From assembly GCA_029262295.1 (NCBI GenBank), contig JAJCZR010000061.1:1-37032 (forward strand): a DNA stretch of 37,032 bases. Direction: 5' to 3'. Below are positions 1 through 25,996 of the stretch, piece by piece. The position numbers and the translations under genes were made by a program. The number at the start of each line of letters is the position of its first letter. Positions within the stretch are counted from its first letter, which is position 1. The notes beneath the pieces were generated by a model that saw only the letters and a program-made list of their open reading frames with translations, was not told the origin of the DNA and did not search any database. Source of the stretch: Deltaproteobacteria bacterium (GTDB taxonomy: Bacteria; Desulfobacterota_D; UBA1144; Nemesobacterales; Nemesobacteraceae).

Positions 1-167
1 TTGCAGATAAATTTGATATATCAAAACCAGCTATTTCTAATCATCTTAAAATACTTCAAGAAGCCGATTTGGTGAGTAATAAAAAAGTGAGACAGCAAAG
101 AATTTATTCAATTAATAAAAATAAGATTAGAGAGCTGAAAAAGTTTTTAGATGACATAACTGGTTAA
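1..167 (+). CDS. ArsR-type HTH regulator, C-terminal part (5' end outside window)
   Basis: The open frame enters from the left edge (first whole codon at 3) and stops with TAA at 165-167. The 54 visible residues contain the recognition-helix pattern SKPAISNHLKILQEADLV followed by a short beta-wing (QQRIYSI), which is the winged-helix signature of the ArsR/SmtB family. These are small dimeric repressors that leave DNA when they bind a metal or another signal. The inducer-binding residues cannot be judged because the N-terminal half is missing. It lies inside the mobile element whose right end is near 4695, so it is probably cargo or a regulator of the element. Confidence 0.8.
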   Translation, partial: ADKFDISKPAISNHLKILQEADLVSNKKVRQQRIYSINKNKIRELKKFLDDITG

Positions 168-240
168 TTGAATTCAATGCTAATAACAGCATTACAATTT
201 ATATAAATAAAATATAAACTTTAATAATAGGGGATGTATT

Positions 241-459
241 ATGAATAAAACAATTCTTATTTCTGTGATTTTAATACTGGCCGTCTACATTTTTATGAAC
301 AGGCAAATTATCACTGTAACCACTGATATAAAACAAGGCGTATCCTACAATCGAGTTGAAGTTATTAATAAAATTACTGGAAATGTTAAGATAATTTATT
401 GCAACCAAGAAAGTATCACCTGCGTAATGCAAAATGAAATTAATGTTAGTTCTAAATAA
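241..459 (+). CDS. Small single-pass membrane-anchored protein, unknown function
   Basis: A 72-residue protein with one hydrophobic N-terminal segment (about residues 4-18, ILISVILILAVYIF) followed by a polar 50-residue tail carrying two cysteines (about 54 and 61). It could be an anchored periplasmic peptide or an uncleaved signal anchor. A GGGGA-like ribosome site at about 229-234 supports the ATG at 241. It follows the ArsR-type gene by about 70 bases on the same strand and may share its transcript. I do not recognise the family. The gene is within the mobile element. Confidence 0.55.
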   Translation: MNKTILISVILILAVYIFMNRQIITVTTDIKQGVSYNRVEVINKITGNVKIIYCNQESITCVMQNEINVSSK

Positions 460-482
460 TTTTTGCTAAAGGCTAAGAAATA

Positions 483-836
483 TTAATCTAACACAGTCCC
501 TTCAAAAACCTTTTTTGTTAGATGTAATTTCATTAAGTGTTCTTTATTTGGATTTGTTTTTAAAATTTTAAGTAGTTCGCTTGCCAAGTAACAAGTAGAT
601 TTAGGATTATCTTTTTTTACCGTTTTTATCATATACTGATTTGAACAAAACCAGATTTCTTCATTTAATAATTTAGAATATATAGGTATTGCCATATCCC
701 TTTTAGATAATTCTTTCAAAGTAAGTTTTGAAATTCCTGTAATAGTATCTTGGGATGAATCATAAAATGAATCAACATAAATATCCTTTTCTGACTGATT
801 TATCTTATTTAAAATATTATCCCATATAGCACTCAT
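483..836 (-). CDS. Hypothetical protein of mobile element, 117 aa
   Basis: Unrecognised soluble protein of 117 residues with no signal peptide or membrane segment. It is rich in Lys, Ser and Leu and ends in a basic stretch (HLMKLHLTKKVF). A GAGGG ribosome site lies about 8 bases before the ATG at 836 on the minus strand, so the gene looks real. It is downstream of the primase-helicase on the same strand but separated from it by a strong hairpin terminator (935-973) and by iteron-like repeats, so it probably has its own promoter. Context suggests an accessory gene of the integrated element; no function can be assigned. Confidence 0.6.
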   Translation of the reverse strand: MSAIWDNILNKINQSEKDIYVDSFYDSSQDTITGISKLTLKELSKRDMAIPIYSKLLNEEIWFCSNQYMIKTVKKDNPKSTCYLASELLKILKTNPNKEHLMKLHLTKKVFEGTVLD

Positions 837-865
837 AGTTGGTTACCCTCTATATAGCTCAAAAA

Positions 866-1043
866 CCGTTACAACCGTTACAATTCGCAAAATATATAAT
901 AATACCCGTAGTTTATGGCATTATATGTGCTTTTAAAAAACCCCTTACACTATGTAACTTGTAAGGGTTTTTTAGATTGCTAGAAATTAACATAAACGCT
1001 TATAATCATTTAATAATATTATTTTTGTAACGCATGTAACGCA
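866..1043. repeat. Iteron-like TGTAACG repeats, possible element origin
   Basis: Two exact tandem 9-mers CCGTTACAA occur at 866-874 and 875-883. Two exact tandem 9-mers TGTAACGCA occur at 1026-1034 and 1035-1043, inside the last codons of the primase gene. On one strand all four share the core TGTAACG (inverted in the first pair). Short directly repeated boxes beside a primase-helicase gene are what iteron origins of plasmids and integrative elements look like. Function as an origin is inference; the repeats themselves are directly visible. Confidence 0.45.
935..973. terminator. Intrinsic terminator after primase gene
   Basis: A hairpin with arms 935-949 and 960-973 (AAAAAACCC(C)TTACA against TGTAAGGGTTTTTT, one bulged C) and a 10-base loop. 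A-rich on one side and T-rich on the other, it can terminate in both directions. It most likely ends the leftward primase transcript, whose stop codon is at 1019. Confidence 0.8.
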
Positions 1044-3472
1044 TTTTGAGGCTCTATAGAAGAACCCCAGCGTTGAGATAGGTCTTCAATTTGCTTTTTT
1101 GTTAATTTATAGCCCCTAATTGGCTCATGTCCTTTTCTGTGTGTTTGTGATCTTGAACCCATTTTTCTAAGTAAGGATTGAGCATCTTTGTTCTTTTCCA
1201 CCCAATCTATGCCACCATTATTGAAAATTTGGACAGCTTCTTCAGATGTAATAATAATTTCATCTAAACCTTCTGAATTGATATGTTCTCTCATTATGTC
1301 GATTGCTTTAACAAAATAGGCACTATCTTCGCTTTCTTCTTTTGTATAACTCAATCCAATTGAGGCTAGTTTTAGTTGTTCAAAAAGCTTTATTGTATCT
1401 TTATCTTCAACATTATTAAGTACAACTGCAGCAATTGAGTACAAAATCTCAAGTCCATCCTTTAATCTATCATCAACATTTTCTGAAATAATTTCATCTT
1501 TGAAATTTGAATATGCTTCATATATCTTATTGGCATTATTAAGTGCAAAAATATGTAGATTATCTCTTAAACCATGAAAAATCCCCTGCATCCTATCAAT
1601 CTGTAGTCTTTCAACTTTCTCATTTCTTTTTTTTCTAATAAGTTCAATTTTTATAGCTCTGTCGGCTGTTGCATCTTCAAGATAGTTGATCCCAGCTAGT
1701 ACAATAGGTCTGAATACAGAAAATTGCTTGACCTTGTTTTCCTTTCCATCACATCTTGATATATAACCTTGTCTTCTATATGCTGAGTTCAATATTGAAA
1801 GTCTTTCGCCTGTTTCTTTCTTTTTTATCAGGTTCTCGGCTTCATCCCATAGCAAGGTTCCTGCTGTAATAGATGGCACTCTATAAAGAACAGCATCACT
1901 CGGAGCTGTTTCGATTCCGTTTGCGTTATAACAAAGTTCAGACAATAGCTCCAATAATCTTGTTTTTCCACATCTTTTAGTTGGAGAATTAATCCAAAGA
2001 AAAGGGTAGAGGGGAAAAATTCTATGTAAATAAGTTCCCATTACCCATAATGAGGTTAAATCTGATTGCCAGTCATCCTTGAATATGACAAATTTATTTA
2101 GCATGTCTTTTATTTCCGAAAAAATAAAAAATGAAGACACTGGATTACTATTGCTTTGAAGGTATTTTTGTATTCCTTTAGCTGAAAATTTTGAAAATAT
2201 TGGTTTGTCTTCTAAATAGTATTCATTTTTAACTTGTTCTAAGTTTCTTACTTTGTTGTCAGATATAAATAAGCATTCACCGTTAAGTTTAAGACCGTAC
2301 ATCAATTCACCATCAATAAAGTTCATTGAAGAATGTATGTATTTTTTGTTATCTGAGGAAGAAAAAATTTTTTCTTCCTCTACAATGCTTTCATGTGTTT
2401 TAGCCTTTTTTAATGATTCATCGACTATCTCTTTGAATTTTTCTACTCCAACATCCACTAATATTTCATCAGCATCTTTTTCTTTATTTCCTAATTGAAT
2501 AACACTACATTTGAATTCTTTTGATAATTTGTATGATGCTTCTTTTCCAGCTTTATCAGGATCAAATGATATATATAAATGGCTTGTGGCATTATCTATC
2601 AAACTTTTATTAGCTTCTGAAACTTCTTTTCCTAATAATGAACAGCTTGGAAATCCTGCTTTAATAAATGCTAGAGAATCGGGAATAGATTCTGTAATTA
2701 TGCAAAGGTTTTTATTTAGATTTTCTGAAAATGTTATGGGTTTATTTGGACATAGTTCATTGTTTGGAAGTCCTAACCATTTGGGGTATCTGTCGTTTAC
2801 AATAGGAAATTGTCTTGACCAAATTGATATTGGAGTACCTTTATCGTAAATTGGAAAAATTAATCGATTTTGAAAACTTTCATACGAATTACGATTGCCT
2901 TTTTCTTTAATAATTCCAAGTTCTAATGAATTGGCTTTATGTTCTTCTGATAAAAAATTAGAAAAAATATTCTTTCCAACATAGCCAATTTTATAGTCTT
3001 CTATTTGCTCAATTGTAATCCCTTTCTCAAGTTTTAAAGATTCTTGAATATTTGTGTTAGTTAACAAATTTTCATGAGCTTTATTTACGTATAATTCGAG
3101 AGTATAAATTAAACCCAAAGGGATTTGTTTTATTTGTGTTGCTTCACAATCAATTGGAAGGTGGTATTTTTCGATTAATGATTTAGCTGCATCAAATTGA
3201 GAGTTATGACTGTGTAGTTCTTTTACTAGGCTTATTACATCTACAATTTTTTCACAACCGAAACATTTTGCACCTAGATTATCTGGTAAAAGAGTAAATG
3301 AAGGTTCTTTTTCATCATGAAATGGACATAAAGATTTTCTATTATTAAAATCGATGCCGTAGTCTTTGGCAACATTTACAAAATTGAGATTTTTTTTAAC
3401 TTCTGAGAAAATATCCACTTCGTAAGTTTCAGAATTATTCCTCAAAGGTGTATTTTTTTTATTCTTCATCAA
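1019..3472 (-). CDS. Primase-helicase: CHC2 zinc finger, Toprim, DUF3631-like ATPase
   Basis: Three recognisable parts lie in 817 residues. A DnaG-type zinc finger has C49, H52, C70 and C73. A Toprim primase core has E261 (TESIPDSL) and the DPD pair at 304-306. A P-loop ATPase region has Walker A SPTKRCGKT (496-504), Walker B LLWDEAE (540-546) and an Arg-rich segment after GINYLEDATADRAIKI resembling DUF3631 proteins of phages and integrative elements. Such fusions make primers and unwind DNA to start replication of the element. The gene overlaps the AlpA-like gene upstream by 14 bases, so they are co-transcribed. It is followed by iteron-like repeats and a terminator. No linked helicase loader is seen, consistent with a self-contained replication protein. 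The first in-frame ATG pair at 3472 is used. Confidence 0.88.
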   Translation of the reverse strand: MMKNKKNTPLRNNSETYEVDIFSEVKKNLNFVNVAKDYGIDFNNRKSLCPFHDEKEPSFTLLPDNLGAKCFGCEKIVDVISLVKELHSHNSQFDAAKSLIEKYHLPIDCEATQIKQIPLGLIYTLELYVNKAHENLLTNTNIQESLKLEKGITIEQIEDYKIGYVGKNIFSNFLSEEHKANSLELGIIKEKGNRNSYESFQNRLIFPIYDKGTPISIWSRQFPIVNDRYPKWLGLPNNELCPNKPITFSENLNKNLCIITESIPDSLAFIKAGFPSCSLLGKEVSEANKSLIDNATSHLYISFDPDKAGKEASYKLSKEFKCSVIQLGNKEKDADEILVDVGVEKFKEIVDESLKKAKTHESIVEEEKIFSSSDNKKYIHSSMNFIDGELMYGLKLNGECLFISDNKVRNLEQVKNEYYLEDKPIFSKFSAKGIQKYLQSNSNPVSSFFIFSEIKDMLNKFVIFKDDWQSDLTSLWVMGTYLHRIFPLYPFLWINSPTKRCGKTRLLELLSELCYNANGIETAPSDAVLYRVPSITAGTLLWDEAENLIKKKETGERLSILNSAYRRQGYISRCDGKENKVKQFSVFRPIVLAGINYLEDATADRAIKIELIRKKRNEKVERLQIDRMQGIFHGLRDNLHIFALNNANKIYEAYSNFKDEIISENVDDRLKDGLEILYSIAAVVLNNVEDKDTIKLFEQLKLASIGLSYTKEESEDSAYFVKAIDIMREHINSEGLDEIIITSEEAVQIFNNGGIDWVEKNKDAQSLLRKMGSRSQTHRKGHEPIRGYKLTKKQIEDLSQRWGSSIEPQNALHALQK

Positions 3473-3677
3473 TTTGATTCTCCAAATCTAACCATTTCAA
3501 GAATTTTTTAGTATTTAGATATACTCTCGATCCTATCCTTCTTCCCCTGGGCATTTTCCCTGTTCTTTCATATTTCCTTAAAGTCCACATAGGAATTGAA
3601 GATATTTGAGATGCCTTTTTAAATGTTATTTGTAAGGGTAATTCGGATTCTTTTATAATATGAATTTTTGAAGCCAT
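3459..3677 (-). CDS. AlpA/excisionase-like HTH DNA-binding protein
   Basis: A 72-residue protein with a MerR-like winged helix: TFKKASQISSIPMWTLRKYERTGKMPRGRRIGSRV followed by YLNTKKFLKWL. This layout is typical of AlpA/Xis-type proteins that bind att sites or promoters of integrated elements and steer excision. A perfect AGGAGG ribosome site precedes the ATG at 3677. The 3' end overlaps the primase start, placing both in one operon. I infer that it regulates excision or replication of the element; a plain transcriptional regulator is equally possible. Confidence 0.75.
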   Translation of the reverse strand: MASKIHIIKESELPLQITFKKASQISSIPMWTLRKYERTGKMPRGRRIGSRVYLNTKKFLKWLDLENQIDEE

Positions 3678-3759
3678 TTTTTAGTTCCTCCTAAAATATT
3701 TTTGTATTATTTAGGATAGAATAAAATGACTTAGAAAGATGGTGGCTAATTAAAAATTA

Positions 3760-4560
3760 TTAACCACTACTTTCGTAGTAGAAATCACGCAAGCTATGAT
3801 AAGGAACATTTAACTTTATTGAGAAAAAATATATTGCAACTTCTTTAACCTTACTTATCTCAAATTTTGGATCTGGTTCTTGATTTAATTCGGAATTAAA
3901 AATTGATAAATGAGCATAATTAATAGAATCTTCAGTAATTATTTTTCTCCCTTTTTTTACTTCCATCATAGATTCTTTGATCTTAGTTGCTAATAAATTC
4001 ACATGTATTTGAAAATAATCTTGATTATTTTCAAATAACAACTCAAATAGTGGACTGTCAAATGAATATGCTTTACCTTTTTTAGTTGTTTTTAATAATG
4101 GCAATTTACATTGATCTAAAATATCGTCTACTCTTTTTTTTACTTTAGTCTTCATTATTTTTGAAGCAAGCATATAAAATTTCAATATATTTGAATACTT
4201 ATTAGTAAAAACTAATTTATTATTTCTCAAGAGCTCTTTTTTAATTAACCGTGGTTTCAAAAAATACTCTATTTCTTCTTTTTTTTCATTAGTGAACACA
4301 AACAATTCTTGAACTACTCTAATTTTTTCAAAATCTGTTCTAGATTTCTCTCTAACAAACTCATATATGAGATAATCAACACATAAGTCAACATCTTCTT
4401 TTTCATGTAATTTAGGTATAAAAGGTTTGATTAATTGATATAAAATACCTTTTATTAAATTGTAATTCTCATAACCGCAAAATATAAGATTAATGTAATG
4501 GGTGTCTGGATAGGTGTCTATTTTGTCTGATAATAGATTTTTTAGTATGCCTTTAGCCAC
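3760..4560 (-). CDS. Unknown 266-aa protein at the element's right end
   Basis: A soluble, Lys-rich protein with no signal peptide or membrane helix; no family recognised. The first half is helix-rich with FVREKSRTDFEKIRVVQELFVF. The second half contains a basic patch (MKTKVKKRVDDIL) and TTKKGKAYSFDSPLFELLF. The start is GTG at 4558-4560 (GTG GCT AAA GGC) with a TATAAT box about 18 bases before it at 4578-4583. It is the last gene before the attachment-site scar at 4651 and is read toward the AlpA-like and primase genes, as a replication initiator or early regulator would be. That role is a guess from position only. Confidence 0.6.
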   Translation of the reverse strand: MAKGILKNLLSDKIDTYPDTHYINLIFCGYENYNLIKGILYQLIKPFIPKLHEKEDVDLCVDYLIYEFVREKSRTDFEKIRVVQELFVFTNEKKEEIEYFLKPRLIKKELLRNNKLVFTNKYSNILKFYMLASKIMKTKVKKRVDDILDQCKLPLLKTTKKGKAYSFDSPLFELLFENNQDYFQIHVNLLATKIKESMMEVKKGRKIITEDSINYAHLSIFNSELNQEPDPKFEISKVKEVAIYFFSIKLNVPYHSLRDFYYESSG

Positions 4561-4650
4561 AATGCTAAAATAACAATATTATAAGTATTTTCAAGGGAAT
4601 TAATCTTTGTACACCATTAGCTATATTAGTATCAAAAAACTATATCAATT

Positions 4651-4695
4651 CCTTGCCAAGGAGAAGGTCGCGGGTTCGAATCCCGTTTCCCGCTC
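4651..4695 (+). repeat. tRNA-Gly(GCC) 3' fragment, attachment-site scar of integrated element
   Basis: The segment starts with the anticodon loop TTGCCAA in CCTTGCCAAGG, continues with the T arm (GCGGGTTCGAATCCCGT) and ends with the 3' acceptor strand TTCCCGCTC. It matches the 3' half of bacterial tRNA-Gly(GCC). The 5' acceptor and D arm are absent; the bases upstream are AT-rich and unrelated. Tyrosine-recombinase elements integrate in tRNA 3' ends and leave exactly such a copy at the distal end. Because the copy reads rightward, the element extends leftward from here, and the intact tRNA-Gly should lie left of the window. Confidence 0.8.
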
Positions 4696-4744
4696 AATTT
4701 TTAATTTTCTTAAACTTATTCAACATTCTGTTTAAAATAGCACA

Positions 4745-4773
4745 TTGATACATATAGCCCATTGGGTTACTCT
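4745..4773 (+). promoter_or_regulatory. Possible promoter of the toxin-antitoxin operon
   Basis: TTGATA at 4745-4750 and TACTCT at 4768-4773 are 17 bases apart, a fair -35/-10 pair. The predicted transcription start would fall near the GTG codon at 4780, which could make the toxin message leaderless. Confidence 0.35.
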
Positions 4774-5121
4774 ATACTTGTGAATAAAAAACTTGTCACT
4801 GTTGTAGAACATTCTTATTACATAAAACGTGCAGAAAGAGTTATAACAACAGACCAGATGCAAGATATAACAGACATTCTGGCTATTAATCCTAAAGCTG
4901 GTGATGTAATGGGGGGAACAGGAGGTTTCAGAAAACTCCGTTATGCAGGAATTCAAGGTAAAGGGAAAAGTGGTGGATTTAGGATAATACAAATTTATAT
5001 AAAAATAGATGAAAAAGTTCATCTTGTTGATATATTCGGAAAAAACGAAAAGGACAATTTAAGTAAAGAAGAAAGAAATGAACTTACAAAATTAGCAGAA
5101 ATTTTAAAAGGGAAGAATTAG
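4762..5121 (+). CDS. RelE/HigB-like toxin of a type II toxin-antitoxin pair
   Basis: 119 residues with the pattern of RelE/ParE-superfamily (HigB2-type) toxins: VVEHSYYIKRAERV, then DITDILAINPKAGDVMGGTGGFRKLRYAG, GKGKSGGFRIIQIYI and a C-terminal LVDIFGKNEKDNLSKEERNELTKL. Family members cleave mRNA on the ribosome; catalytic residues are scattered basic side chains and cannot be pinned down here. The start is uncertain: TTG at 4762, or GTG at 4780, which sits just after a promoter-like sequence; no clear ribosome site is seen. The antitoxin follows 9 bases downstream, the toxin-first order usual for HigBA and RelE-NadS pairs. The pair lies 70 bases outside the attachment scar. Confidence 0.85.
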   Translation: MGYSILVNKKLVTVVEHSYYIKRAERVITTDQMQDITDILAINPKAGDVMGGTGGFRKLRYAGIQGKGKSGGFRIIQIYIKIDEKVHLVDIFGKNEKDNLSKEERNELTKLAEILKGKN

Positions 5122-5130
5122 GAGAATAAA

Positions 5131-5418
5131 ATGAGTGAAATATTTGAATCAATCAAAAAAGGTGTTGAAGAAGCAATTGAATGGAAGAAGGGCAAAAAAA
5201 CTGGTGCCCGAGTTCATATTTACACTGCAATGGATGTTGCAAAAATTCGCAAGAAAACTAAAATGAGTCAGAAGAAATTCTCAGAGGCTTTTTCCATTCC
5301 TTTATCTACTTTAAGAAAATGGGAACAAGGACAACGCGTGCCTCAAGGCCCGGCTCAGGCTTTGTTAAAAATTATAGATAAAGATGCAAAGGCCGCCCTG
5401 GAGGCCATCCACAGATAA
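5131..5418 (+). CDS. Xre-family antitoxin (HigA/NadS-like)
   Basis: 95 residues with a Xre/Cro helix-turn-helix: VAKIRKKTKMSQKKFSEAFSIPLSTLRKWEQGQRVP, followed by GPAQALLKIIDKDAKAALEAI. The SxxTLRKWEQGxRxPxGPA motif is typical of NadS/HigA antitoxins, which neutralise the RelE-like partner and repress the operon. An AGGAG ribosome site precedes the ATG at 5131. Its toxin is encoded just upstream on the same strand. Confidence 0.88.
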   Translation: MSEIFESIKKGVEEAIEWKKGKKTGARVHIYTAMDVAKIRKKTKMSQKKFSEAFSIPLSTLRKWEQGQRVPQGPAQALLKIIDKDAKAALEAIHR

Positions 5419-5445
5419 CTAATCCGAACAGTTTAAATTAATGAC

Positions 5446-6123
5446 TCATTTTTCTTCAGAAGTATCTGTTGAGTTTTTATCAGATTTATTAAAAATTTGA
5501 TCTGAAGAAAGCACATTTATAAAAACATCTTTTGGAATTAAACATCTATCTACATCTAGTCCGCAAAAATCTCCGAATTCTTCAATCTCAATTGTGTCAT
5601 CACCGTAATAAACACCAATGCTTTCATCTACGAGACATACTCCATTAAAAAAATCAAAATCAATTACTTCATAACCGCTACATGGATTGTAAACATAACT
5701 CCCATTATAAAACTCACTTTCATTATTTGCTTCACATTCATTAAGCTTAATTGTTGTAATATAATTTCCGGGAGTTAAATTCACTGTCATTTCAGAAAAT
5801 CTTGGTGTGCAAACAAAGTCGTAAAACAAACTGTTTTCTACCTCTGGAATTGATTCTTCATAGTAACCATCGGTTGCCAGATAAGTATCAAGAACCTCAA
5901 TATCAAATCTGAAATCATCAATTAGAAGTTCGCCACTACCAGCCACATATTCATGATCTCTGTAAGCATCTAGCTCTATAGACAGACCTGTTTCAAAATT
6001 GGTTGCTGAGACCTGAGTTTCAAAATCTGGCATATCATCATTAAAGCTGCTTTCTTCGAGTGAACATCCACCAATAATTAAGAGAGGTAAAAAGAGTATT
6101 GTTAACAACAGTTGAATTTTCAT
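5446..6123 (-). CDS. Predicted lipoprotein, unknown function
   Basis: 225 residues beginning with a lipoprotein signal (MKIQLLLTILFLPLLIIGGC; C20 is the likely lipidated residue). The mature part is strongly acidic, rich in Asp, Glu and Tyr, and has seven or so further cysteines (for example in FVCTPRF, LNECEAN, NPCSGYE and the CGLDVDRC stretch), suggesting disulfides outside the cytoplasm. The segment TVNLTPGNYITTIKL resembles a beta-sandwich strand pair, but I recognise no family. An AGGAGA ribosome site lies before the ATG. It is monocistronic and convergent with the antitoxin gene. Confidence 0.7.
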   Translation of the reverse strand: MKIQLLLTILFLPLLIIGGCSLEESSFNDDMPDFETQVSATNFETGLSIELDAYRDHEYVAGSGELLIDDFRFDIEVLDTYLATDGYYEESIPEVENSLFYDFVCTPRFSEMTVNLTPGNYITTIKLNECEANNESEFYNGSYVYNPCSGYEVIDFDFFNGVCLVDESIGVYYGDDTIEIEEFGDFCGLDVDRCLIPKDVFINVLSSDQIFNKSDKNSTDTSEEK

Positions 6124-6260
6124 CGCTTTCTCCTATCCTGAATTTCAATAATACAAACCAGAATAGAAGAAAAGTGTTTCAGGAAAGTTTATTTGATTTG
6201 TTTTTGGGTATAGAACTATTTCATTTAAAATTAACAAACGAAAAAAATATTTTGCTAATT

Positions 6261-7361
6261 CTACGTATCAAATGCTTTCATTTTCTTTAAAATATCATCC
6301 ATAGTCCTATCTTTCTCTTCTTTTGACATTTTAGATACTCGATTTCCTAATCCTTTTTGTCTAGGAATTAAAAATCTTTTCCAAGCTTTTAGTGTAAAAG
6401 AATTATCAAGCTCTGGCGGATAATTTCCATAATCAGACGAATATTTTTCTTTCTCTAATTCAGACAAATTTTTCCACCATTGCGAAATTCTATTAATATC
6501 ACTTCTCAATTCGTTAGTATCAACAAATATTTGATAGTCTGATACTAAACATTTGCACAATTTAATTTGATCTTTGTCGCAACTAGAGAATACGTAACAA
6601 AATGGTAGATAAAATAAATATTGCAAATCTATAATATTGGTAGTCTTAGTCCCAATAACCCTAAAAAGAAGAGAATAAAAAAATAGAAGTAACGCTTTTA
6701 AAATAAAGAACCCATATTCTGAAAACACTTTAATACTTTTATGATTTCCATCAATCCATCTATTAATTATTTTAGTTTTATCATCATCATTAAAAATGAA
6801 AGAATTAACTAGCCACATAAGCATCTCTAACTGATCTGCTTGATTCTCACTTGATAATTTTATTTCTGTAACTTTAACTACATCATCTAAATTTTTGATT
6901 TTTTCATTTTTTTTTATTAATTTTTCAAAGCTACTTACTAAATCTTCAAAATTAATTTTAGATAAATATGTTTCATATGATTTAGCATATTCTAGTTCTA
7001 AATCATTAAACTCTCCCCTTTGCCATCTAATAAACATTGAAGATTCTTCTGTTCTATCTATAAGTACCCCATTATTCGTTATTTTAGTTGGAGTAACTAC
7101 TGGCCTGCCATCAATAACAAAGTCAAAACCCAATAATGATTGTAATAACAATATGTCAAACATCTCATTTGTAGCAGAAAAAACTGAAAGTCTTTTTGAT
7201 AAGCTAGAAACTTTTTCTCTTGGATATTTTCTCAAATCTGCAATAATTTCACCTATGAGTATAGGTGTATTATTAATGTGATAATATTTACTAATTGTAT
7301 AGTATTCAGATGTGGAAAAAGTCTGAAAAGCGGATTTATCTAATGTTAAAAATGGTCCCAT
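6261..7361 (-). CDS. Hypothetical protein, possibly PIN-like nuclease family
   Basis: 366 residues. The N-terminus (LTLDKSAFQ, D8) and PILIGEIIADL (E about 38), with a later YLFYLPFCYVFSSCDKDQ segment followed by DYQIFVDTNELRSDI, resemble a group of large uncharacterised bacterial proteins that carry PIN-like acidic clusters. That link is from pattern memory, not an alignment. The segment FFILKALLLFFYSLLF (about residues 216-232) is hydrophobic but may be a buried helix rather than a membrane segment. No clear ribosome site is visible at the ATG. It lies in an accessory stretch beside toxin-antitoxin and nucleotidyltransferase genes, so a defence or toxin role is possible but unproven. Confidence 0.6.
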   Translation of the reverse strand: MGPFLTLDKSAFQTFSTSEYYTISKYYHINNTPILIGEIIADLRKYPREKVSSLSKRLSVFSATNEMFDILLLQSLLGFDFVIDGRPVVTPTKITNNGVLIDRTEESSMFIRWQRGEFNDLELEYAKSYETYLSKINFEDLVSSFEKLIKKNEKIKNLDDVVKVTEIKLSSENQADQLEMLMWLVNSFIFNDDDKTKIINRWIDGNHKSIKVFSEYGFFILKALLLFFYSLLFRVIGTKTTNIIDLQYLFYLPFCYVFSSCDKDQIKLCKCLVSDYQIFVDTNELRSDINRISQWWKNLSELEKEKYSSDYGNYPPELDNSFTLKAWKRFLIPRQKGLGNRVSKMSKEEKDRTMDDILKKMKAFDT

Positions 7362-7417
7362 TATTAATAAGTAATCATTCTTATATAATATTCAATATTA
7401 AAGCTGGTGAGTTTATA

Positions 7418-7477
7418 CTAATCCCCAAAAGGAAGAAAGTTTTCGGTTGATTCTATATTGTAAATTAGTTTTTGAAG
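7418..7477 (-). pseudogene. Duplicated C-terminal scrap of the glutathione S-transferase gene
   Basis: Read on the minus strand, 7477 to 7418 encodes LQKLIYNIESTENFLPFGD and a stop. The intact gene at 7833-8432 ends IQKWIENIESTENFLPFGD and a stop. DNA identity is high for about 40 bases and fades upstream. No start codon or further transferase sequence is present, so this is a relic of a tandem duplication or recombination that now flanks the dodecin gene. Confidence 0.75.
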
Positions 7478-7732: not shown

Positions 7733-7832
7733 AGTATTACCTCCTTAGTTTTATTTGAATCTTTGGTAACAGCATTATAGATAATTTTTGTTTGGATGTT
7801 AAGTAACTTGAGAGAATAAAAATAGAATTCTT

Positions 7833-8432
7833 CTAATCTCCAAAAGGAAGAAAGTTTTCTGTTGATTCTATATTCTCAATCCATTTTTGAATATTAAGAT
7901 AATTGGTAAGTTCAACTCCACCTTCGGGTGCGAGCATTATATAGGGATAACAGGCGATATCTGCTATTGAGTAACTATCCACAAGAAAATCTTTGCCTTT
8001 AAGATGCGCGTCAAGAGTTTTTAAAGCAGAGTTACCCTGCATTTGAAATTTTTTCATATCTTCAGGATCATGGTCGGGAACAAATTTGGTTAAATACCTG
8101 GCCATTGCAAGATTTGGATCAATTGAAGTTTTTCCAAATAAAACCCACTGGGCAATATGCCCATAAGTTTCAGGATTATCGGAAGTAAATGAATTTGGAG
8201 AATACTTTTTAGCAAGATAAAAAAGGATTGCATTTGACTCCCACATCACAAAATCACCATCCACAATCACAGGAATCTTTTGATTGGGATTTACTTTGGT
8301 GAACTCTTCACCTTTATGCTCACCTTCAAATAGTTCAACTATTATCCTTTCAAACTCCACACCAAGCTGATGTAAAAGTAGCCTCGGTTTGTAAGCATTT
8401 CCAGAAAGTTTGTGGTCGTATAGTTTTATCAT
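7833..8432 (-). CDS. Glutathione S-transferase family protein
   Basis: 199 residues with the thioredoxin-like N-terminal domain (MIKLYDHKLSGNAYKPRLLLHQLGVEFE, cis-Pro motif NPNQKIPVIVD, then WESNAILFYLAKKY, where E-S binds the gamma-glutamyl part of glutathione). The all-helical C-terminal domain follows with the conserved SIADIACYPYIM. The likely catalytic residue is Ser10 in LSGN. The family conjugates glutathione to electrophiles or acts in isomerisation; the substrate is unknown. Its start is 2 bases from the stop of the nucleotidyltransferase gene, so both are co-transcribed. Confidence 0.92.
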   Translation of the reverse strand: MIKLYDHKLSGNAYKPRLLLHQLGVEFERIIVELFEGEHKGEEFTKVNPNQKIPVIVDGDFVMWESNAILFYLAKKYSPNSFTSDNPETYGHIAQWVLFGKTSIDPNLAMARYLTKFVPDHDPEDMKKFQMQGNSALKTLDAHLKGKDFLVDSYSIADIACYPYIMLAPEGGVELTNYLNIQKWIENIESTENFLPFGD

Positions 8433-18114: not shown

Positions 18115-19416
18115 ATGATGAAATCTATAAATGTGGGGCTTATCGGAGCCGGAACAATCGGATGCGGGGTTTACAAAATTCTCAATGAAAACAGTGAAAT
18201 AATAGAAAAACGTACTGGAATTAAACTCAACCTGACTAGAATTGCCGATATTGATATTGAAAAACAGCGCCCTGTAGATATCCCTAAAAGGCTTTTCACA
18301 ACTGATGCAAATGAAATAATCAATGATGATTCTATATCAATTATTATTGAACTTATCGGCGGCACGACTATAGCAAAAGATCTTGTTTTGGCCTCAATTA
18401 AAAATGGGAAAAACGTTGTAACGGCTAACAAAGCACTTATAGCCCATCATGGAGATGAGATATTCAGTGAAGCTGAAAGAAATGGTGTGGAAGTTGCTTT
18501 TGAAGCTAGTGTGGGTGGGGGCATACCTATAATAAAGGCTAGTCAGGAAAGCTATGTGGCAAACAATATTGAATCTATTCACGGAATTATTAATGGGACA
18601 TGCAACTATATTCTTTATAAAATGTCGGAAGAGGGAAGAGATTTTAATGATGTGTTAGAGCAGGCACAGGAGGAAGGATATGCAGAAGCTGACCCTTCTT
18701 TTGATATAGATGGTATTGACGCTGCACATAAACTTTCAATTCTAATAATGCTTTCCTATGGAGTTTTTCTTGATTTTGAAGACATTCAGGTTGAGGGGAT
18801 AAGAAACATTACGCCCACTGATATAAATTTTGCAGATCAGCTAGGGTACAAGATAAAACTTCTTGCAATCACAAAAGCCAAAAAAAATGGGCTTGAAGCT
18901 GGTGTATATCCGGCACTTGTTAAAAAAGGGACCCAGCTTGCAGATGTGAGCGGGGCATTTAATGCAATATATGTTGTTGGAGATGCCGTTGGCCCTACAA
19001 TGCTTTACGGTATGGGAGCAGGCATGATGCCAACTGCCAGCGCTGTTGTGGGTGATATTGTTTCAATAGCAAAAAACATTGGTGGCAAAGAGAGCAACCT
19101 TCCAAAACTTTATTCGGATAAGGAAAAGATCAATCTATTGAATCTCAAAGAATCTTCCAACAAATATTATCTAAGATTTCAGGTTGAAGACCGCCCCGGC
19201 ACGCTCGGAAAAATTACAAGCATTCTTGGCAAAAACAAAATAAGTATAGAGTCTGTAATTCAAAAAGGAAGAGAAAAAGATGGAGGGGAAGTGCCTGTTA
19301 TAATCATGACACATGAATCTAAAGAAAAGAACCTTCTATCTGCTTTAAAAGAGATTAAAGGTTCAAAACTTCCTTTATCAGATCATATGTTTATCAGGAT
19401 TGAACAACTGAGTTAA
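18115..19416 (+). CDS. hom: Homoserine dehydrogenase with ACT domain
   Basis: 433 residues. The NAD(P)-binding loop is GLIGAGTIGCGVY, the substrate region runs from ANKALIAHHGDEI through EASVGGGIPII to GTCNYILYKM and EAQEEGYAEADPSFDIDGIDAAHKL (catalytic Asp/Lys region), and a C-terminal ACT domain begins at about 350 (YYLRFQVEDRPGTLGKI). It converts aspartate semialdehyde to homoserine for threonine, methionine and isoleucine; the ACT domain suggests threonine feedback. A GAAGGAGAT site precedes two adjacent ATGs (18115, 18118). Its stop overlaps the ntrB start by one base. Confidence 0.96.
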   Translation: MMKSINVGLIGAGTIGCGVYKILNENSEIIEKRTGIKLNLTRIADIDIEKQRPVDIPKRLFTTDANEIINDDSISIIIELIGGTTIAKDLVLASIKNGKNVVTANKALIAHHGDEIFSEAERNGVEVAFEASVGGGIPIIKASQESYVANNIESIHGIINGTCNYILYKMSEEGRDFNDVLEQAQEEGYAEADPSFDIDGIDAAHKLSILIMLSYGVFLDFEDIQVEGIRNITPTDINFADQLGYKIKLLAITKAKKNGLEAGVYPALVKKGTQLADVSGAFNAIYVVGDAVGPTMLYGMGAGMMPTASAVVGDIVSIAKNIGGKESNLPKLYSDKEKINLLNLKESSNKYYLRFQVEDRPGTLGKITSILGKNKISIESVIQKGREKDGGEVPVIIMTHESKEKNLLSALKEIKGSKLPLSDHMFIRIEQLS

Positions 19417-24952: not shown

Positions 24953-24985
24953 AAAGGGACACAAGGCTGTGTCCCTTTTTTTATT
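24953..24985. terminator. Intrinsic terminator of glnA
   Basis: AAAGGGACACA-aggc-TGTGTCCCTTTTTTT: an 11-bp perfect stem, 4-base loop and T-run. It overlaps the 3' end of the convergent Fic gene, whose stop is at 24981, and may terminate both. Confidence 0.9.
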
Positions 24986-25862
24986 TGTAATCAACACCCA
25001 TCTTCCAAACACCTTTTTCACGAAAAGCCGGGACGGTCTGTCTTCTTGCTGAGTTTAGAAGCGAATTAAAAGACCTTTTCCTATTTTCAGAATACATTTT
25101 AAGTAAGACTATTTTTTTGCCTTTCAAATATGCAGCTCGTTTATGAAAAGACTCCAGAAGAGATAAATAGATAATCTTGTTCATACTCTCACTTTTATTA
25201 TTATTTTGATACTCACTGAATGAGAAGTGGTAATCTGATCTGATTTTGTTTCTAATAATTATTGGAGGAAACCCAGCTTCCATAAGTTGATAATTTATTA
25301 AGATACGTCCAACCCTTCCATTACCATCACAAAAGGGATGTATAGTTTCAAATTCAAGATGAAAGTTTATTATTTTTTGAAGGAAATAAGTCTCAGTATC
25401 CAACTTGTAATTTAACAAAAGCTCATCAATCATTGTTTCCACCTCATCGGGTGGGGGAGCTATATAAGTGCCAACCCTCACATACTCATTTTCCTTCCGA
25501 AACCTTCCCGCAATATCATCATCAATATTTGTAATCAACATATTATGTAGAAATAGAACTAGTTCTTTATCAAGAGGCCTGGGTTGATTTATTTTTTTTA
25601 TATAACTATAAATTCTGGCAAGATTTTTTGCTTCAAAAACTTCCCTGATAGAAATATTTCTTGAAACCTCAAGTCCCATTAAAATCCTTTCGGTCTCATC
25701 AATAGTTAATGTAGAATTTTCAATTGCATTCGAGTTATATACTGATTCAGGAAGTTCTGCTTCAAAAATGATATCAAGTAGAGAATCTTTTCCCTTGCTT
25801 AGACTCTCAAATTCCTTTTTAAGAGAGTTTATCTTAATTTTGTTATTTTTCGTTAATTTCAT
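24981..25862 (-). CDS. Fic family protein, class II (N-terminal inhibitory motif)
   Basis: 293 residues. The catalytic Fic loop HPFCDGNGRVGR (175-186) matches HPFx(D/E)GNGRxxR in full, so AMP transfer from ATP to a hydroxyl of a target protein is expected. The inhibitory motif SNAIEN (44-49, form (S/T)xxxE(G/N)) lies N-terminal, as in class II enzymes that hold themselves inactive. The C-terminus ends in a short HTH-like piece (FNSLLNSARRQTVPAFREKGVWKMG). The target is unknown. The promoter has an operator-like inverted repeat, and TATACT sits 6 bases before the ATG, suggesting a leaderless transcript. Confidence 0.92.
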   Translation of the reverse strand: MKLTKNNKIKINSLKKEFESLSKGKDSLLDIIFEAELPESVYNSNAIENSTLTIDETERILMGLEVSRNISIREVFEAKNLARIYSYIKKINQPRPLDKELVLFLHNMLITNIDDDIAGRFRKENEYVRVGTYIAPPPDEVETMIDELLLNYKLDTETYFLQKIINFHLEFETIHPFCDGNGRVGRILINYQLMEAGFPPIIIRNKIRSDYHFSFSEYQNNNKSESMNKIIYLSLLESFHKRAAYLKGKKIVLLKMYSENRKRSFNSLLNSARRQTVPAFREKGVWKMGVDYK

Positions 25863-25878
25863 GCAAAAAGTATATGCT

Positions 25879-25936
25879 ATTAACGATTTTTTATCAAGAA
25901 ATCGTTAATATTGCTCAAAATTACTGATTATTAACG
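25879..25936 (-). promoter_or_regulatory. Operator-like TTAACG repeats at the fic promoter
   Basis: ATTAACGATTT (25879-25889) and AAATCGTTAAT (25899-25909) form a perfect 11-bp inverted repeat with a 9-base spacer; a third half-site TTAACG is at 25931-25936. The repeat lies where the -35/spacer region would be, upstream of TATACT (25869-25874, minus strand). A repressor bound here would block the fic promoter. Confidence 0.6.
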
Positions 25937-25996
25937 TTTTTTGGAGTTTGGAAAAATTTATTGATTATGAAGAAAAGAGGAGAAAAGCTAAGTTTA

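Follow-up and report, generated by a model that had tools for sequence, protein, structure and literature searches.

In phage lambda, the initiator gene O, the product of which is neither a helicase nor a primase, has the iterons of the origin within its reading frame, and the host DnaB is recruited. In Gram-negative PICIs, the origin is located immediately 3′ of the replication gene and consists of two iteron sets with an AT-rich region between them, and the pri-rep-ori segment of EcCICFT073 sustains plasmid maintenance (PMC6092414). In the SaPI Rep and SCCmec Cch2 helicases, it is the C-terminal domain that binds iterons located directly downstream of the gene (PMC7581432). Furthermore, the archaeal plasmid pRN1 carries an essential origin and a terminator just downstream of its primase-helicase gene (PMC4234260).

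The window, i.e., the whole stretch of DNA that was analysed, is a complete contig (C61) of 37,032 bases that starts inside a truncated ArsR-type gene. As the initial annotation had described, four copies of TGTAACG (867–873 and 876–882 on the reverse strand, 1026–1032 and 1035–1041 on the forward strand) form two tandem pairs, each with a 9-bp period and oppositely oriented to the other, and one of the pairs indeed sits in the last codons (..NALHALQK*) of a primase-helicase gene. The features of this region are as follows.

483–836, reverse strand: gene for a 117-aa protein, function unassigned, adjoining the repeats, with a 49% identical homologue in the same place in locus L034
867–882, reverse strand: putative iteron pair 2, TGTAACG GT TGTAACG, in the opposite orientation to pair 1
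about 932–976, no strand: central hairpin, terminator-like in both directions, predicted by RNA folding
943–966, no strand: degenerate central copies, CCTTACA (943–949), TGTAACT (953–959) and TGTAAGG (960–966), recognised from the sequence and the L034 alignment
976–1025, no strand: candidate unwinding element between the hairpin and pair 1, AT-rich (84% A+T over 50 bp)
1026–1041, forward strand: putative iteron pair 1, TGTAACG CA TGTAACG, embedded in the final codons of the 817-aa ORF
1019–3472, reverse strand: gene for the 817-aa primase-helicase, assigned from Pfam matches (PF01807, PF08275, PF13155), identity to L034 and an AlphaFold2 model
3459–3677, reverse strand: small HTH gene, AlpA/excisionase-like, directly upstream of the primase-helicase gene, assigned from weak matches (PHROG 66, E = 0.01; MerR, E = 0.01)
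3760–4560, reverse strand: gene for a 266-aa protein, possibly of the same element, with no Pfam match and one weak PHROG match (E = 0.015)

The repeats are probably (at roughly 0.83) the iterons of a replication origin, one that shares sequence with the 3′ end of the gene for its initiator. This reading rests on the presence and arrangement of the repeats, the absence of the paired motif elsewhere in 57 genomes of the phylum, the DNA conserved in the homologous locus L034, the layout in two distant relatives (L037 and L038) and the recurrent association of similar arrays with the 3′ ends of phage primase-helicase genes, so that, as the initial annotation proposed, an origin embedded in the tail of the replication gene that it serves appears to be the best supported interpretation. 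The sequence is best read as an iteron origin that would be bound by the C-terminal domain of the helicase, similar to the PICI/SaPI pri-rep-ori module. The MCM-like helicase half would bind the heptamers via a C-terminal winged-helix-like domain, form rings on both of the inverted pairs and melt the AT-rich DNA between them, after which the fused DnaG-type primase would lay the first primers.

Compared with the described systems, the putative origin of the window is very likely a variant of the PICI/SaPI-type arrangement, which is known from a few phage satellites and was also observed here next to several other families of phage replication genes. In EcCICFT073, a primase-helicase is likewise followed by two iteron sets around an AT-rich stretch (PMC6092414). 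However, its heptamer is TGTCTACC rather than TGTAACG, its iterons are outside the gene whereas pair 1 of the window is in the last codons, and its helicase is of the D5 type whereas the window encodes a DnaG-type primase with an MCM-like helicase. In CFT073, CTGTCTACC 9-mers, again with 9-bp spacing, directly follow a PHROG 864 primase gene, which we take to be that of EcCICFT073 based on gene content and on old locus numbers next to phoPQ; this stretch lacks the GTTAC/GTAAC core. SaPI Rep and SCCmec Cch2 share with the window an array 3′ of the helicase gene, and the predicted structure of the window helicase matches that of PriRep1 (7pds), the SaPI protein, although the SaPI/SCCmec primase type is different. 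The window also resembles pRN1 in having the putative origin and a terminator-like hairpin 3′ of a primase-helicase gene, but pRN1 has a 100-nt stem-loop there instead of iterons. The location of iterons within the initiator gene is shared with lambda, whereas O is unlike the primase-helicase of the window.

By score, the array is modest. Its Poisson cluster score was 5.8 and that of the L034 array was 7.3, both below the threshold of 8 used for the phage families. The array is small, and what gives it weight is that it is conserved and unique. TGTAACG was expected at 1.38 copies per shuffled window, and the fifth copy in the window is distant, at 18417. Any heptamer with at least three G/C occurred four times within 180 bp in only one of 100 dinucleotide shuffles, and exactly one such heptamer, CGTTACA, did so in the real window; six further heptamers with at most two G/C also passed, with shuffles averaging 2.4 heptamers of any composition. 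Within the 2.2-Mb genome, TGTAACGNNTGTAACG was found only at these two places. Across 57 genomes of the phylum, it was found at three sites in two genomes, all at the 3′ end of a primase-helicase gene, the third being in G036, and a reversed-pattern control gave two matches, both in G019. That the four copies arose by chance or as an unimportant repeat at the protein level would be compatible with so small an array in an AT-rich window, but the shuffle, genome, homologue and codon-phase tests all oppose this explanation and make it extremely improbable.

The inverted pairs are 143 bp apart, and the gap between them has a modest excess of A+T (75.5% vs. 66% in the window). The terminator that the initial annotation had placed between the pairs corresponds to a real hairpin, with a folding energy of −13.7 kcal/mol (z = −3.1) on one strand and −15.3 kcal/mol (z = −3.7) on the other, and a terminator scanner restricted to loops of 3–8 bases reported no terminator for it. 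The degenerate central copies in this hairpin align with an exact CGTTACA..TGTAACG pair in L034.

The N half of the primase-helicase contains a DnaG-type Zn ribbon, DNAG_N and Toprim domains according to Pfam, and the C half (1022–2392) is predicted to be an MCM-like AAA+ helicase, for which no Pfam match was obtained. An AlphaFold2 model of the helicase half with 49 relatives (pLDDT 84) had an AAA+ core, and the order of helices and strands at its C-terminus appears to suit a winged helix. Foldseek matched the model to MCM (E = 7 × 10⁻⁶) and to PriRep1 with dsDNA (7pds, E = 2.9 × 10⁻⁵, ranked ninth), with TM-scores of only 0.3–0.4, and NrS-1 ranked thirty-eighth. VIA-align likewise matched it to MCM replicative helicases (Z = 17.8, 267 residues, rmsd 5.1), and PriRep1 was not among the 50 matches listed. 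A search of the helicase profile against PDB chains by sequence yielded no match, and the nearest viral structure model was a phage protein annotated as DnaG/twinkle. With respect to DUF3631 (PF12307), the window protein had no Pfam match and the L034 protein scored 21.0 bits against a cut-off of 24, and phmmer related the window protein to a DUF3631 protein, L079 (E = 6 × 10⁻²⁶).

L034 (G036:C110) was the sole close relative of the window protein found. Queried with either the window protein or A1, viral contigs gave no closer relative; genome contigs gave only one, with 27% identity over the primase half, and phages and plasmids gave no record covering 80%. The C halves of the L034 and window proteins were 49% identical and the N halves were unrelated, that of L034 having no Pfam or PHROG match. 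This fusion of one helicase half to unrelated N halves (window 1019–3472, L034:185–2653) is a swap of the primase module.

In the same place as in the window, L034 carries five copies, which read CGTTACA twice and then TGTAACG three times in the sense of the primase gene, the same order as in the window, and are followed by a gene for a 108-aa homologue of the 117-aa protein. The alignment bears out that this single close homologue keeps the repeats, read in another codon phase. Because they are retained despite the unrelated N half, the repeats go with the helicase half. The surroundings of pair 2 are the best conserved DNA between the two loci, where GAATTGTAACGG.TGTAACGGTTTTT is common to both with one base different. 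Translated, the tail repeat of the window encodes ALH/ALQ, that of L034 encodes SVT, and the distant relative L079 reads it as GVT, AVT and CNA. Given the difference in codon phase between the window and L034, the DNA rather than the peptide seems to be conserved, and selection seems to act on the DNA.

Weak helicase relatives of the same phylum were also found in G015, G026 and G021. Those of the first two genomes, L037 and L038, were 24%–25% identical to the window protein over approximately 270 residues, and these two proteins were 77% identical to each other. Neither locus contained TGTAACG. In L037, GTTCACA was located at +42 and +51 from the stop codon and TGTGAAC at +142, +150 and +159 (score 7.3); in L038, GTTCATA was located at +35, +44 and +52 and TATGAAC at +143 and +152 (score 6.5). 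Both arrays are thus inverted and mostly 9-bp-spaced, lie within 170 bp after the stop codon and have the order found in the window, and they are likely to be the origins of related elements. The heptamer differs between L037 and L038 in both arms together, as expected of sites that one protein reads. The two arrays are positioned after 6229 and 6314, respectively, on the reverse strand of the loci, and the helicase ORFs encode 783 and 779 aa. In G021:C682 (L304), where the 3′ end of the gene was not located, no strong array was found in the 3.5 kb available (best score 5.8).

The repeats could instead be operators of the 117-aa gene, bound by the primase-helicase or a small regulator, with one pair falling in the upstream gene by chance, and the conserved surroundings of pair 2 would suit this. 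Pair 2 is 31–46 bp upstream of the start of this gene (ORF 483–836), and the corresponding pair in L034 is 35–50 bp upstream of the start of the 108-aa gene. A promoter-like match also overlaps pair 1, although shuffled sequences yield at least as many such matches. However, pair 1 is within the upstream gene and L034 retains it in a different codon phase, the two pairs have a terminator-like hairpin between them, and no ATG-initiated ORF of at least 70 residues was present on that strand within 360 bp downstream in L037 or 1,130 bp in L038. Similar arrays also follow the primase-helicase genes of three families, as described below. An operator role is accordingly very improbable compared with an origin.

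Families chosen by protein alone from viral contigs were scored, each gene by its strongest heptamer cluster between −300 and +400 relative to the 3′ end, with a threshold of > 8. These comprised 63 DUF3631 loci, a Zn_Ribbon_Prim set (the best 80 of 191 relatives of L054 and L145) and a third, D5 family of relatives of L069 and the EcCICFT073 primase; loci with no stop codon in the stretch or with less than 200–300 bases after it were dropped. In the Zn_Ribbon_Prim set, 59 of 76 3′ ends scored > 8, whereas none of 73 primase 5′ ends and only 2 of 322 ends of other genes did; L232 is a 96% DNA copy of the seed L054, and the count without it is 58/75. For DUF3631, the corresponding values were 11 of 57 3′ ends, 0 of 54 5′ ends and 3 of 319 other gene ends, where the 11/57 omits L159, L170, L222 and L162 (non-seed, 9.7) and includes the seed L172 (5.4), giving a corrected 12/57. 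In the D5 family, 74 of 80 3′ ends exceeded the threshold versus 0 of 427 controls, with the seed L069 (L337) omitted from the count. At a lower score of > 5, 43 of 322 (Zn_Ribbon_Prim) and 51 of 319 (DUF3631) control gene ends were also included. Identical heptamers 9 bp apart numbered 1.39 per region versus 0.23 in controls and 1.90 versus 0.14 (6- and 13-fold).

The independent lineages behind this association are few. Clustering at 70% identity gave eight Zn_Ribbon_Prim clusters (five with scores of > 8), 41 DUF3631 clusters (eight with > 8) and three D5 clusters (one with > 8 and all three with > 6). The 9-bp-spacing, clustering and DUF3631-TerL counts omit L162 and L172. The heptamers themselves were diverse. 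TGTTACG was 131-fold enriched at Zn_Ribbon_Prim 3′ ends, and TGTAACG ranked joint eighth there by the number of loci with at least two copies; simple heptamers such as CTCTCTC and ATATATA were likewise enriched. TGTAACG ranked only 683rd in the unselected DUF3631 set, in which the heptamers vary widely and many proteins end in tripeptide repeats. The inverted order of the repeats also varies between families. L069 has ten copies of TGTAACG at the end of its primase gene, which belongs to PHROG 864, as does the EcCICFT073 primase; as the sole query against viral contigs, it retrieved itself and one relative.

Two other lines were set aside as evidence. Among 120 loci selected by the repeat pattern, 15 had a recognised primase, eight of them with the pattern near its 3′ end, and five were the chosen queries; in the ten non-query primase loci, the pattern was near in three (L155, L065 and L074) and 1.4–10 kb away in seven. 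The number of pattern matches in viral contigs was also rejected, since chance alone would yield many. TGTAACG clusters were additionally observed inside or across early phage genes at L039:11086–12057 and L087:6663–7379, and the L039 gene matches DnaD-like helicase loader/replisome organiser families, a further replication context.

Among 16 named phages, only phi1422 and MinM1 (10.1) scored > 8 at the 3′ end of the primase gene, followed by KLER1-1 (7.4) and S-H1 (7.3), and the other 12 scored ≤ 5.2. The Bdellovibrio phage phi1422 has 11 copies of TGTTACC in 307 bp directly after the primase gene, flanking a T/A-rich core. Acjo_20, one of the 12 low-scoring phages, has nine copies of TGTTACA 5′ of the primase gene. 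GC-skew extrema in eight phage records (seven whole and one covering 50,000 of 52,767 bases) were uninformative.

The repeats could alternatively be a packaging site (pac/cos), bound by the terminase small subunit. Many of the pattern-selected clusters have terminase genes or unidentified genes as neighbours. TGTAACG clusters adjoin terminase genes in L073, L046, L152, L040, L068, L114 and L090, and no primase was recognised next to these seven clusters. L034 runs from the primase through the repeats, the 108-aa gene and an HTH gene to TerL (two ORFs), and the start of TerS in MinM1 scores 7.7. Moreover, a TerL-like ORF occurs 0.7–3.3 kb downstream in 42 of the 76 Zn_Ribbon_Prim loci, and the result for this family is therefore confounded. 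In contrast, of eight Zn_Ribbon_Prim loci in which 3.5 kb or more of downstream sequence contained no TerL, six still had arrays. Of 19 repeat-rich DUF3631 loci (score > 6), 17 lacked a recognisable TerL in the stretch available, which for 12 of the 17 included 3.5 kb or more on the downstream side. The D5 family had arrays in 74 of 80 loci and TerL in 0 of 80. In phi1422, the array directly follows the primase gene, with the terminase 7.5 kb away and a TerS score of 3.6, and neither the window nor L037 and L038 contained a recognisable TerL-like ORF. TerL was sought in all these cases by phmmer with 10 to 15 queries, a search that can overlook distant members. Overall, a packaging role appears quite improbable, and a replication origin remains the preferred reading of the array. 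By similar layout, L124 and L141 also have TGTAACG clusters beside terminase genes.

From these few independent lineages, we infer tentatively, at slightly less than even odds, that heptamer arrays with 9-bp spacing that mark the 3′ ends of primase-helicase genes might be a general kind of origin among tailed phages and phage satellites, and not only among PICIs. The tripeptide-repeat tails of many of these proteins (VTx, CNA, SAT, VAD, EQA) would then be iterons read as protein, and the heptamer and the DNA-binding domain would change together. If this is true, the tail of a single gene would allow the origins of many unstudied phages to be predicted from sequence, and protein tails that resemble repeats could be identified as DNA elements. 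For the window, the array provides a candidate origin for an uncharacterised element. A phrase search of the open-access literature found no earlier report of an origin at the 3′ end of a primase gene, and a search for the heptamer letters in the same literature gave no phage origin among the matches listed.

The element may be a satellite, a plasmid or a prophage; the contig ends at base 1. The terminase genes 3′ of the repeats in L034 suit a phage, prophage or satellite. The element was not filed as a PICI because no integrase was recognised (Pfam scan of the ten ORFs of 3–7361) and the AlpA evidence is weak. The 117-aa protein had no Pfam match and only weak PHROG matches (best E = 0.0095), and its predicted structure was poor (pLDDT 62.8).

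A 64-nt direct repeat (7413–7476 and 7828–7891, 86% identical) encloses a dodecin-like gene and resembles a duplicated attachment site. Its second copy extends over the 3′ end of a gene (7833–8432) that appears by eye to be glutathione transferase-like, and the genome contains no further good copy. A search for the insertion site through the synteny of relatives gave dodecin as the sole match outside the genome itself. The segment 4762–5418 contains an ORF of 119 aa followed by an HTH_3 protein with an MqsA-antitoxin-like match below the cut-off, a possible toxin-antitoxin pair. Finally, a cluster of CGTTAAT/ATTAACG at 25851–25960, at the 5′ end of the reverse-strand ORF 24981–25862, may be an operator array.
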